Positions 7,742 to 47,213 of a DNA stretch of 64,000 nt are shown in pieces. Every line of letters starts with the position of its first letter. Positions within the stretch are counted from its first letter, which is position 1. Under the pieces are notes generated by a model, which saw only the letters and a program-made list of their open reading frames with translations, had not been told where the DNA came from and did no database searches. This stretch comes from Fluviicola chungangensis. GTDB lineage: Bacteria; Bacteroidota; Bacteroidia; Flavobacteriales_D; Crocinitomicaceae. A program made the position numbers and the translations under genes. The stretch lies in the NCBI RefSeq assembly GCF_007558725.1, contig NZ_VLPL01000009.1:1-64000 (forward strand). The letters are read 5' to 3'.

Positions 7742-8194
7742 ATGGAAGCTATCATTCGTACCGAAAAGGGAGATATGCGTGTAACCTTCTTCCAGGAAGA
7801 TGCACCGAATACAGTTGCTAATTTTGTCAAATTGGCCAAAGAAGGATTTTACGACGGACTGACATTTCACCGTGTTTTGCCAGACTTCGTCATCCAGGGT
7901 GGATGCCCGAACTCACGCGAAGGTGCAACAGGAATGCCGGGAACAGGCGGACCAGGTTACAAAATCGACTGTGAATTGAACGGAGGGAATCAATTCCATG
8001 ATCGTGGAGTGCTTTCGATGGCTCATGCGGGAAGAAACACCGGAGGATCTCAATTTTTCGTTTGCCACAGCAGAAACAATACGGCACACTTAGACCGCAA
8101 TCATACCTGCTTCGGAAAAGTCATTGAAGGGTTGGATGTAATTGACGACATCAGACAAGGTGATCGCATTTTGGCGATAGAAGTTCAAGATTAA
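7742..8194 (+). CDS. cyclophilin-type peptidyl-prolyl cis-trans isomerase
   Basis: 150 residues, a single cytoplasmic cyclophilin domain without signal peptide. Visible family landmarks: [15 protein letters not shown] (catalytic FHR and the IQGG loop), [20 protein letters not shown] (GSQFF) and [20 protein letters not shown]. It catalyses isomerisation of prolyl peptide bonds during protein folding. The gene stands alone between its own promoter and a strong terminator. Confidence 0.93.
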
Positions 8195-43104: not shown

Positions 43105-44808
43105 ATGAAGACAACACTATTCACGGTGGCGCTCCTGCTTGCGCCCTATTTTGGCAACTCTCAGCGAATCCTGGAAATTACCAACGGAAGCTGGGTCAAT
43201 CAAAACTTATCTGTTGAAAGCTTTCAGGACTTTGTCATAAGCGGTTTCACGGAAACCAATCCGGCAACAGGTTTATTAACTCCCACTTTTAAGGTTACCA
43301 ATGTTGCCGGAACTCCTTTGAGCACCTATTATGTCGATTACCCCGATGCTGTTTATTTAATGGACTTTACAATCAGGGAAGCCACAAACACCATTATTCT
43401 CACGGGAATGACGGCTGTAACGACCGGCGGAACACCTTATAAAATGATCGTAGCAGAAGTTGACTTCATGACGGGAGCACCGGTACAAAGTTCGCTTGAG
43501 TATACCTTCAGCGGAAATTCCACGGTACCTCACCAGATTATCTGCTCGGAAACAGCCGGACAGGTGACGGTAGTCGGGACTGAAATTGTAGGGACAGTTA
43601 CATCGAGCAATTATGCTACTATTCCGAAGTTCGGTTTTGTACTGGGGCTGGATATCACTAATTTCAATATCCAATCTTATCCTCCGATCGAAATGGACCT
43701 TCCGGCGACCAGCATCTGGGATTATGACATGCTGGAAAACATTACGGAAGTACCGGGAGCAGGCTACTTTATTTCGGGATCCTGCAATGCTCCTGCTTCG
43801 GGAGAACAAAACCTCATTACGCTCGGGACAGATTATGCAGGAAACGTAACATTTTCCAATATTATCGACAACACCAACTCGCGTTTTGCGGGATCTTCCG
43901 TAATGTACAATGCCCCATTGAATGTCGTTTACCTATTGGCTAACAACAGTGTTATTCACCAGTTCCAGATTGCTATATGTGATCCGCTTACCGGGGCATT
44001 CCTGACACCCTGGACACGCCATCAGCTGGCAGGATATCCGATTGGCAGCGGTGTCGATCAAAACGGTTTCCGTTTACAGCAGTCCCGGGATAATATGATT
44101 GTCATTGGGGGATATTTAAGCGCTCCGTCCGGTGCATTGCCGCAATTACTCACTCCTTTCCAAATTACACTGAAGGATAACCTGACTTTCCTGGCGGCGA
44201 AAATATACCAATCAGGCAACAACTCGCCTTTGGCGCCAAGTTATTTTGAGGAAAGCGGTAATTCTGTCTTTATCAACACTCCGGATATGATTGTGTACAA
44301 CCTGTCTTCAAACCGGACTTACCTGGTAAGCCAGAATACCATCAACGGGGGTTTTGACCTGAATGTTTCTTCCCTTTTAAGTGTTTCCAAGTGTGAAAAA
44401 CAGGCTTCGGTAAATACGTTTACAACCAGCCCGATTTGGGTAGGTCCCGGAAACTTCAATCCGCTTCCAATGTATCCGGTGAGTTATCCTTCCACCCAAA
44501 TCCCGCGCCCGATCCACCAAACAATCCTTTGCCAAAGCATCGCTCCTGCCCTTGCCGCACAAGGTCCGGGAATTACTTTATCTCCGAATCCGGCAAACGA
44601 AGTGGTTAACATCACGGTGGATGAAGGGACCATTGAACATGTCTCTGTTTATGACCTGAAAGGCAAACTGGTACTTTCACAGCAAGCCGGTGAACGAAAC
44701 CCGGATGTAATGACTCTTACTGTCGGAAAACTTGAGCAGGGAGCTTACATGATGGAGGTGACTACGAAAGGAGGAACCATTCAAAGAGAACGATTCGTGA
44801 AAGAATAA
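43105..44808 (+). CDS. T9SS-exported protein with type A sorting domain
   Basis: 567 residues. Signal peptide MKTTLFTVALLLAPYFGNSQ. The long central part is beta-rich with repeating motifs that match no catalytic family (possible propeller, ~30-470). The C-terminal ~75 residues are a Por secretion tail: ITLSPNPANEVVNITVDEGT, EHVSVYDLKGKLVLSQ, LEQGAYMMEVTTKGG and QRERFVKE. The protein should cross the outer membrane by the type IX system and stay on the surface or be released. Monocistronic. Confidence 0.85.
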   Translation: MKTTLFTVALLLAPYFGNSQRILEITNGSWVNQNLSVESFQDFVISGFTETNPATGLLTPTFKVTNVAGTPLSTYYVDYPDAVYLMDFTIREATNTIILTGMTAVTTGGTPYKMIVAEVDFMTGAPVQSSLEYTFSGNSTVPHQIICSETAGQVTVVGTEIVGTVTSSNYATIPKFGFVLGLDITNFNIQSYPPIEMDLPATSIWDYDMLENITEVPGAGYFISGSCNAPASGEQNLITLGTDYAGNVTFSNIIDNTNSRFAGSSVMYNAPLNVVYLLANNSVIHQFQIAICDPLTGAFLTPWTRHQLAGYPIGSGVDQNGFRLQQSRDNMIVIGGYLSAPSGALPQLLTPFQITLKDNLTFLAAKIYQSGNNSPLAPSYFEESGNSVFINTPDMIVYNLSSNRTYLVSQNTINGGFDLNVSSLLSVSKCEKQASVNTFTTSPIWVGPGNFNPLPMYPVSYPSTQIPRPIHQTILCQSIAPALAAQGPGITLSPNPANEVVNITVDEGTIEHVSVYDLKGKLVLSQQAGERNPDVMTLTVGKLEQGAYMMEVTTKGGTIQRERFVKE

Positions 44809-44948: not shown

Positions 44949-46094
44949 TTACCAACCGCTCCTCCACTTCTGTGCAATCCGGAGTGCTGTTTCCAACATA
45001 TAGGGCGACCAGCTTTCGGTTTTCCAGGCCGAATGCGCCAGTGTGGAATTGTTAAGCAAACGGGTTGCTTCTTCATAATTTGCAGCTTGTTCCAGGATGG
45101 AAGACAATTCCAATTGTTGCCGGTACAGTTCCAATGATTCGGGAACAGGTTCATTCAAAGACACGGCTTGCTTCAACAGGAAATCGTTATCGGGGATCAA
45201 ATTATTGCGTCCATTGAATTCATTTACAATGGCTTGCATGTGGTCAAAATCCTGCTGAAATAACTCCTGGCTTTCAGTGGTATGCAGAGCAATCCCCAGC
45301 TGTTCCAATACTACAAACTTCAGGTTCGGGCATACGGAAAGTGTTTTTCTTAAGAGCTCAAACACGGCCTCCGGAACTGCATCGTCGTGCGTATCCCTGC
45401 GAATAGTTCGTTGCGGTTGAATCCCGGACACGTCCCAACTTCCTCCTGAAATGTGAATCTCACGCACACGATCAAGCGGATATGCCCGGATAAGCGTTTC
45501 GAAATCCAATTCAAAATTCTGCAATTGACAATATACATTGTGGAGGTCGAGAATAATAAATCCATTGACCGGTTCGATCAGTCTTTCCAAAAACTCGCCG
45601 TGTCGCTGCACTTCTTCCAGCGAATACGAAAATGCCAGGTTTTCCAACCCGACGGGACAAGCGCATGCCTCCCGGATCCGTTGCAGTCGGTCAATTCCAA
45701 TACGAAGTGTTTCTTTCTTGTAGGGCACGGAGATCGGTGCACCTTTGTGGAAGTCCTCACCGGTCATGAACCCGAAATGTTCTGTAATATGATCAAAACG
45801 GAAGTTAGATGAAACCTTGCGCAAATGGTCGAGCCAGCGTTGTTGCTCTGCGGTCCATTTTCCCGAAAAAAGCGAGAAATACACTCCGTGACCAACAAGC
45901 CTTCCTTCGTTTCCAAAAGCATGCAAGAGTTCTACGAACCAAATCGGAATCTCACGCACTTTATAAAGTGTATCAAACGACCATTCGATCGCTTCTATTT
46001 TTTCCGCTGCAAATAAAGGAAGTGTCGCCTGTAAAAGCTGATTATCCAGGTTACAGGAAACAGCCGAACGGATTTTTGGAAGCAGTTGATTCAT
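44949..46094 (-). CDS. DUF692 multinuclear non-heme iron oxidase (MNIO) with C-terminal extension
   Basis: 381 residues from ATG 46094 (MNQLLPKIRSAVSCNLDN). The start overlaps the stop of the preceding precursor gene as ATGA, which argues for coupling and against the in-frame ATG four codons upstream. TIM-barrel MNIO landmarks: H69 (VGHGVYFS), E105-H106 (ITEHFGFMTG), E151-N152 (GLENLAFSY), D183/N186 (LDLHNVYCQ), H214 (REIHISGG), H236-D237-D238 (DTHDDAVPEA) and E264 (VVLEQLG). These fit the metal ligands of MbnB/TglH/ChrH/BufB enzymes, which oxidise cysteine in ribosomal peptides. The family is usually ~280-300 residues; here ~80 helical residues follow (~300-381), perhaps a fused partner/recognition domain. 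Confidence 0.88.
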   Translation of the reverse strand: MNQLLPKIRSAVSCNLDNQLLQATLPLFAAEKIEAIEWSFDTLYKVREIPIWFVELLHAFGNEGRLVGHGVYFSLFSGKWTAEQQRWLDHLRKVSSNFRFDHITEHFGFMTGEDFHKGAPISVPYKKETLRIGIDRLQRIREACACPVGLENLAFSYSLEEVQRHGEFLERLIEPVNGFIILDLHNVYCQLQNFELDFETLIRAYPLDRVREIHISGGSWDVSGIQPQRTIRRDTHDDAVPEAVFELLRKTLSVCPNLKFVVLEQLGIALHTTESQELFQQDFDHMQAIVNEFNGRNNLIPDNDFLLKQAVSLNEPVPESLELYRQQLELSSILEQAANYEEATRLLNNSTLAHSAWKTESWSPYMLETALRIAQKWRSGW

Positions 46095-46258
46095 CCCATT
46101 CCACATACCGGACAGTTGTCTCTGACCGGCTTTTCTTTTTTCGCTTTGATCTCTTTTGTTCTTCCTGAATTCACCTCATTTTGATGACAAGAAGAAGACA
46201 GGGCAGTTACCGCAACACCCAGGGTAATTGCCTGAAGCAAGGCAGGAGAAAGTTTCAT
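46091..46258 (-). CDS. putative RiPP precursor 2, C-terminal CPVCGMG
   Basis: 55 codons. MKLSPALLQAITLGVAVTAL is a basic-hydrophobic leader ending LSSSC, which looks like a lipoprotein-type or Sec signal. A hydrophilic linker NEVNSGRTKEIKAKKEKPV follows, and the end is RDNCPVCGMG-stop. It is about 40% identical to the neighbouring precursor in the leader and identical in plan at the terminus. TGA overlaps the ATG of the MNIO gene, so enzyme and substrate are translationally coupled. I infer that the two terminal cysteines are modified by the MNIO, which installs oxazolone/thiooxazole- or imidazolidinedione-like groups in known cases. Metal buffering is one possible role. Confidence 0.8.
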   Translation of the reverse strand: MKLSPALLQAITLGVAVTALSSSCHQNEVNSGRTKEIKAKKEKPVRDNCPVCGMG

Positions 46259-46282
46259 TCGGGTTGTCTTTAAAAGTTCGCT

Positions 46283-46474
46283 TTATCCCATTCCACATGC
46301 CGGACATGGCTCAGAATGCGTATTCGGTGAATTGGTGTCGCCAGACCGGTCGTCGTTGACTTGTTCTTTTTTCTTTTTGATGTCTTGTTTTTCACAAGAA
46401 GTTGTTGCAGCAGAGATCGTTGCTACAGAAACACCTAAAGTAATGGCATGCAATAAAGATGATGATAGTTTCAT
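46283..46474 (-). CDS. putative RiPP precursor 1, C-terminal CPACGMG
   Basis: 63 codons. MKLSSSLLHAITLGVSVATI leads into SAATTSC (signal or lipobox-like), then a charged linker (KKKKEQVNDDRSGDTNSPNT) and the end HSEPCPACGMG-stop. It is a paralogue of the 55-residue gene 24 bp downstream: the MKLS-x2-LL-x-AITLGV leader and the CPxCGMG tail are conserved while the linker varies, the pattern expected for substrates of one modifying enzyme. A longer in-frame start exists upstream but would include codons overlapping the DUF6629 gene. Confidence 0.8.
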   Translation of the reverse strand: MKLSSSLLHAITLGVSVATISAATTSCEKQDIKKKKEQVNDDRSGDTNSPNTHSEPCPACGMG

Positions 46475-46523
46475 AGTTTCAGAATTTTGGGGAAGGTAAC
46501 ACATTCTCTTTACATGATCAAAT

Positions 46524-47213
46524 TCATTTATTCTGCGGTGTATTCTCTTGAGGGAACGTTCGTTGACCCAAAAAAGATGCCTTCCTGATCTCCCGCATGA
46601 CCAAAAAGACCCAAACACTTTGTACAGCTGCAAAAAAGCACCAAACGGAAACCAACCAGGCTTCATAGAACAACTCTGTGGTGATCAGCGAAACTAGATT
46701 GACAGCAGCCAGAATAAGGGCATTTTTCCAACTGGAAAAGAATGGTGAAATGACAATTGCAGCGATATACAAAATTCCCGTAATTTGTATGGCGTAGAAA
46801 GCCCCCATTTGATATGAAATATGACATCCGTCGATTTGTGCACTTGCAGAAAAGAAGAGCAAACGGTAAGCCAGCATAATGGAACACGCACTCCCTGCAA
46901 ATAAAAAATAGCGGAGGATTTTCTGTCTTCGGGGATTGCGTTCGATAACCAAAAACGAAAGAGGAACCCAAAACGGCCAAATGACTTGTGCAAACAGAAG
47001 AAAAACATACTTAGCAGGTTCGTGCCACCTGGAAAAATCCGCATCAATTAAAGAAAGCCAGACAAATCCTTCGCAAAACTGTTGAATCGCAAAGAATAGC
47101 GGAATACAGGCAAAAACCACATGAATGGGTTTACGAACCTGGCTCACGGAGGCTATTCCAGCAATGGTTAAAGTTCCTCCTGCTATAAAACTTGCACTTG
47201 CAGAAAAACACAT
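46524..47213 (-). CDS. DUF6629-like multi-pass membrane protein
   Basis: 229 residues and seven hydrophobic segments. The beginning MCFSASASFIAGGTLTIAGI and the central WLSLIDADFSRWHEPAKYVF agree with a family I remember as DUF6629 (MCFSAxASF start). Inner membrane, no known activity. It lies 49 bp upstream of precursor 1 in the same direction, so it may be the first gene of the MNIO operon; a role in sensing or moving the peptide product is possible but unproven. Confidence 0.75.
   Translation of the reverse strand: MCFSASASFIAGGTLTIAGIASVSQVRKPIHVVFACIPLFFAIQQFCEGFVWLSLIDADFSRWHEPAKYVFLLFAQVIWPFWVPLSFLVIERNPRRQKILRYFLFAGSACSIMLAYRLLFFSASAQIDGCHISYQMGAFYAIQITGILYIAAIVISPFFSSWKNALILAAVNLVSLITTELFYEAWLVSVWCFFAAVQSVWVFLVMREIRKASFLGQRTFPQENTPQNK

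Follow-up and report, generated by a model that had tools for sequence, protein, structure and literature searches.

A three-gene Fluviicola locus that probably encodes a pair of DybA-type lipidated RiPPs

Precursor peptides with a CPACGMG C-terminus were described in 2023 for 115 gene clusters, and this C-terminus is converted by the enzyme ChrH (PMC10214503). According to the accessible text of a November 2025 preprint (PMC12636315), other Bacteroidota carry shorter precursors with an additional lipobox cysteine; these DybA/DybH "DAG-RiPPs" combine the lipobox Cys with a CPxCGxG motif, and a partner protein is absent. DybH alone caused a −4 Da change, forming a macrocycle and a hydantoin; the seven-residue motif was enough for enzyme recognition, and DybA was triacylated in E. 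coli. The same source presents the chemistry for DybA/DybH, ChsA/ChsH and HymA/HymH, gives C-terminal helices after the barrel as a common property of the ChrH/DybH subfamily, and reports one myxobacterial homologue yielding both the −4 and the +10 Da products as a mixture; its main text, as accessible, contains no mention of two or multiple precursors, paralogs or Fluviicola. Tandem precursor genes are mentioned for bufferin clusters in the accessible part of PMC12452194. A literature search on Fluviicola RiPPs returned no title on such peptides among the matches listed.

We analyzed a 64,000-nucleotide window from Fluviicola chungangensis (assembly GCF_007558725.1, contig NZ_VLPL01000009.1, positions 1 to 64,000), in which three genes on the minus strand very probably form an operon for two DybA-type lipidated RiPPs ("DAG-RiPPs"). 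Read 5' to 3' on that strand, the order is a DUF6629 membrane-protein gene (46524..47213), the first precursor A1 (46283..46474, 63 aa), 24 bases, the second precursor A2 (46091..46258, 55 aa) and a predicted ChrH/DybH-type MNIO (DUF692) enzyme (44949..46094, 381 aa; a TIM barrel followed by C-terminal helices). A1 has its lipobox cysteine at Cys27 and the core CPACGMG (46286..46306), the predicted site of the macrocycle and hydantoin; A2 has Cys24 and the core CPVCGMG (46094..46114). The stop of A2 overlaps the ATG of the enzyme gene (ATGA); the mechanical ORF of the enzyme is 385 aa, starting at 46106. The original prediction had named two paralogous precursors (63 and 55 codons) with MKLSxxLLxAITLGV leaders, the two C-terminal motifs and the ATGA overlap, and all of these are present on the minus strand. 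A DNA pattern for CPxCGMG followed by a stop had exactly two matches in the 4.27-Mb genome, both within the A1/A2 locus, with 0 matches for the reversed control in the genome and 0 in 100 shuffles of the window. A genome search with the enzyme as query returned only itself, with no second copy at E 0.001.

Comparison with family models revealed that both precursors pass the cut-off (40 bits) of the NCBIfam model NF050125 (ChrA_rel_RiPP), A1 with 52.9 and A2 with 62.6 bits; they fall outside the chryseobasin precursors proper (NF050124, cut-off 50 bits), with 17.3 bits for A1 and no listed match for A2. The original prediction knew of no described family that ends in CPxCGMG, but such families exist: CPACGMG is the chryseobasin signature (PMC10214503, accessible part), CPxCGxG with a lipobox Cys is that of the DybA-type lipoproteins (PMC12636315, accessible part), and an NCBIfam model for such precursors already exists. 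The PROSITE-like lipobox pattern matched at Cys27 of A1 and Cys24 of A2, and in 17/17 Fluviicola precursors versus 0/2 chryseobasin-type controls. It was unmatched in both precursors of L020 and in that of L022, though a Cys stands at that place, as well as in the shortened L027 precursor and the first L018 precursor. The pattern scan of 36 loci missed the second L023 precursor, which was seen in other scans. Across the genus, pN/pS of the last 7 codons was 0.05 for A1 (9 genomes) and 0.03 for A2 (8 genomes), against 0.28 and 0.34 in the signal part, and 0.52 and 0.43 in the linker; the ratios are rough since synonymous differences are high (0.55–0.78). In both precursors, strong purifying selection acts on the last seven residues, and the signal part and linker are less constrained. 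These results identify A1 and A2 as predicted DybA-type (DAG-RiPP) precursors, lying adjacent to the enzyme, ending in CPxCGxG and carrying a third Cys in a lipobox. Also supported is the earlier view of the locus as an MNIO gene with a pair of precursors that are secreted or lipid-anchored and probably modified at their two terminal Cys.

The enzyme carries a PF05114 domain (107.5 bits, cut-off 25), and its structural model, with a fold nearest MbnB/TglH, has three helices after the barrel (residues 321–336, 340–348 and 364–378). A PDB sequence search returned only TglH and a Haemophilus DUF692 protein. The ten candidate metal ligands proposed from the sequence (H69, E105, H106, E151, N152, D183, H214, H236, D237 and E264) are correctly numbered in the 381-aa form and are all invariant (10/10) in 31/31 aligned enzymes, the window's own sequence included. 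Seven of them (E151, N152, D183, H214, H236, D237 and E264) align with identical TglH residues, and the remaining three have no clean match to a solved structure. With its PF05114 domain, C-terminal helical bundle and conserved candidate multi-iron ligands, the enzyme is, on sequence grounds, a member of the ChrH/DybH subfamily.

A species-genome scan, which reaches close relatives only, found 28 enzyme loci, all Bacteroidota by title; 6 of 392 sampled genomes of the phylum, the own genome included, had an enzyme match. Within Fluviicola, the enzyme was found in 9/14 genomes with a precursor directly upstream in 9/9, and these nine genomes hold 17 C-[P/T]-x-CGMG-stop ORFs directly upstream of the enzyme. 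The stricter CPxCGMG-stop pattern had a match in 0/5 enzyme-less Fluviicola genomes, one of them 83% complete. The looser pattern gave one unrelated match each in G012, G002, G001, G010, G009 and G006; four genomes had a single match to the reversed control of this pattern. One enzyme-less genome (G007) has genes matching both flanks, with other genes between them. The original prediction had looked to precursors beside the MNIO genes of relatives, and a precursor stands beside 36/36 distinct ChrH-like loci (of 41 fetched, five were repeats of a contig already included). This count leaves aside the short enzyme of G032 (L038/L051) and five distant MNIOs (L039–L043, 23–28% identity), at all of which the precursor pattern had no match, despite an upstream ORF in G032 ending, by eye, in ACGMG. 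In that genome (L038:1-1530), a 292-aa MNIO frame follows the ACGMG-ending ORF and precedes a small ORF, a layout that by eye resembles cyanobacterial MelH/MelHc (PMC12636315, accessible part); the contig may be a contaminant. In Dyadobacter sp. CY312 (L027) the enzyme frame is interrupted, and this locus was excluded from the enzyme alignment and tree. In G012 (L037) the A1 core is CTACGMG, Thr replacing the Pro of the other Fluviicola precursors.

Two precursors were found in 8/9 enzyme-bearing Fluviicola genomes versus 4/27 other loci (L009, L018, L020 and L023), counts that treat related genomes as independent. Mean identity in the genus was 59% for A1–A1 and 58% for A2–A2, versus 41% for A1–A2 of one genome; the A1/A2 split had a support of 89/95 and appeared in 91% of bootstrap trees, on only 64 columns. 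These comparisons indicate that A1 and A2 are two old paralogous lineages, separately conserved in the genus Fluviicola. Their linkers also differ: net charge ranges from −4 to +1 in A1 and from −1 to +5 in A2, and an extra Cys occurs in 7/9 A1 linkers (the window's A1 has none) versus 0/8 A2 linkers (Fisher p 0.002, related genomes counted as independent). The A2 linker is more basic than that of A1 in 8/8 Fluviicola pairs, and the signs are opposite in 6/8, the same-sign-type exceptions being G010 (−4/−1) and G013 (+1/+4); the window's linkers carry −1 (A1) and +3 (A2). As a rule for all twins, opposite charge fails outside Fluviicola, where, among the four twin loci, the linkers are oppositely charged in L018 and L020, identical in L009 and both acidic in L023. 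As a tentative and rather unlikely interpretation, one MNIO might produce, instead of the same product twice, a charge-complementary pair of anchored macrocycles (an acidic, often Cys-bearing A1 and a basic A2) that act together.

Outside the genus, a Chitinophagales MAG (L018:7393-7704 and 7831-8010) has two precursors before one enzyme, one without a lipobox Cys (NF050125 33 bits, cut-off 40) and the other with it (56.7 bits); this locus may give a soluble and an anchored product. Precursors of Saprospiraceae and others outside Fluviicola (L007, L009, L016, L017, L023, L024, L028 and L048) have further linker Cys, many with acidic residues, and these Cys may serve to enlarge the ring or to bind metal.

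We weighed the DAG-RiPP assignment against other readings of the same genes. The enzyme could be a maturase of the ChrH type, S-methylating its product as well (+10 Da), as the shared C-terminal motif and its best NCBIfam match, the ChrH model NF050165, would suggest. The alignment to this model is nearly full-length, reaching position 361 of 363, but the score of 384.8 bits falls short of the cut-off of 600, which two chryseobasin-type enzymes pass with 694.7 and 668.2 bits. A tree of 36 enzymes grouped the nine from Fluviicola in a single fork (91/82) and placed the two chryseobasin-type enzymes by themselves, behind a long 100/98 branch that parts them from the enzyme studied here; in addition, A1 and A2 carry a lipobox Cys that is absent in two ChrA-type controls. 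We therefore consider S-methylation improbable. Because support is weak (91/48) for the fork joining the other Bacteroidota enzymes, and the L051 row is very long, we draw from the tree the sole claim that the enzyme, by its sequence, is not ChrH proper; given the weak fork, its kinship to DybH as against an unsampled methylating branch is uncertain. Since the enzyme stands apart from ChrH proper, an unmethylated product would be expected. Copper buffering by thiooxazole groups of the bufferin/oxazolin type, with which the locus has the enzyme superfamily and signal peptides in common, is extremely unlikely: the enzyme scored 88.9 bits with the BufB model (cut-off 310) and 71.8 bits with HvfB (cut-off 360), far below membership, no DUF2063 or DoxX match was found among the ten proteins scanned around the enzyme, and neither precursor has an EGKCG motif or a Pfam match.

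It is similarly hard to credit that the cell leaves the CPxCG ends unmodified, to serve on lipoproteins as knuckles that bind zinc or copper. CPxCG is also found as half of zinc ribbons, and the extra Cys of most A1 linkers would fit such a role; against it, an MNIO with all candidate ligands kept co-occurs with the precursors. Homologous pairs were, moreover, modified on co-expression (PMC12636315, accessible part). The extent of the operon bears on another arrangement, with DUF6629 as a fourth gene and its membrane protein as partner. This gene lies on the same strand, 49 bases upstream of A1, and was included in the range originally proposed (44949–47213), but its distance upstream of A1 is ~4 kb in L005 and ~5 kb in L002, and the 8 kb of flanking sequence upstream in L003 and L006 contained no match for it, the flanks of the other Fluviicola loci being shorter. 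Furthermore, a promoter-like element (46491..46522, minus strand; TTTG at 46522..46519, TACCTTCC at 46498..46491) lies just upstream of A1 and begins one base after the DUF6629 stop. Bacteroidota promoters resemble TTTG, 20 nt and TA[C/T]CTT, and this arrangement aligned upstream of A1 in 7/9 Fluviicola genomes, being absent in G010 and G012; a sigma-70 and terminator scan gave sites no more frequent than in shuffles. The shifting place of DUF6629 in relatives and the element after its stop ruled it out as a partner, leaving a four-gene operon a very slim chance; the unit is therefore A1–A2–enzyme, and of the proposed range the three-gene part stands while the DUF6629 gene does not.

Clustering of 337 neighboring ORFs of at least 90 aa from 29 loci (smaller proteins and short contigs lay outside its scope) revealed no conserved partner protein: the enzyme was present in 29/29 loci, and the next largest cluster in only 6. 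Most of the 40 clusters listed were confined to one genus, and four of those listed spanned more than one group (5, 4, 2 and 2 loci). A large T9SS-sorted secreted protein (window 43105-44808) adjoins the unit in 5 of the 6 Fluviicola loci under comparison; G003 has two tandem copies of it.

For the DAG-RiPP assignment of the three-gene unit, gene content, homology, conservation, the lipobox pattern and the lgt/lspA/lnt homologues are direct observations; the chemistry and lipidation of A1 and A2 would follow those of the characterised relatives. The cytosolic MNIO would recognise the CPxCGMG terminus of A1 and A2 and use O2 to strip four hydrogens (−4 Da), such that the sulfur of the first core Cys joins the former second Cys to close a macrocycle, and the Gly-Met part becomes a hydantoin, with one free thiol remaining. 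After modification, the signal peptide would export both precursors, Lgt would add diacylglycerol to Cys27 (A1) or Cys24 (A2), LspA would cut at these residues, and Lnt would probably N-acylate them. Two peptides, 37 and 32 residues long, are the predicted end products, each tethered to the membrane and bearing its ring at the end away from the anchor. The genome encodes homologues of Lgt (119.6 bits, slightly above cut-off), LspA (53.3 bits, below the cut-off of 73.95) and Lnt (225 bits, above cut-off). As to function, we can offer only the guess that a surface-exposed pair might bind an outside ligand, e.g., a metal ion or cell-wall precursor. One enzyme with two separately conserved precursors in a genus provides a natural comparison for the function of the anchored ring, which also bears on whether the linker sets the partner or the position in the envelope.

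Among described systems, DybA/DybH of Dyadobacter crusticola and relatives resembles the locus most in its short lipobox-Cys precursor with a C-terminal CPxCGxG, its ChrH-like MNIO with a C-terminal helical bundle, and its minimal cluster in which a partner protein is absent (PMC12636315, accessible part). It differs in genus, the enzyme being 58–61% identical to seven Dyadobacter enzymes, and dyb shows one precursor whereas the Fluviicola locus has two divergent ones, A2 ending in CPVCGMG; this Val-in-ring motif is absent from the variants reported in the accessible part of PMC12636315. Chryseobasin ChrA/ChrH of Chryseobacterium shares the identical CPACGMG core and the enzyme subfamily (PMC10214503, accessible part), but ChrA is longer and without a lipobox Cys, ChrH forms a separate clade with an S-methylated product, and the cluster holds further genes. 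Methanobactin MbnBC and pearlin TglHI act on other substrates to give other products, have partner proteins and lack the C-terminal helical domain (PMC12636315, accessible part). This kind of peptide was already described in 2023 and 2025. The pair reported here adds modestly to it, the fresh point being that the two divergent precursors are of old origin, each conserved in its own right, and differ in the charge of their stalks.
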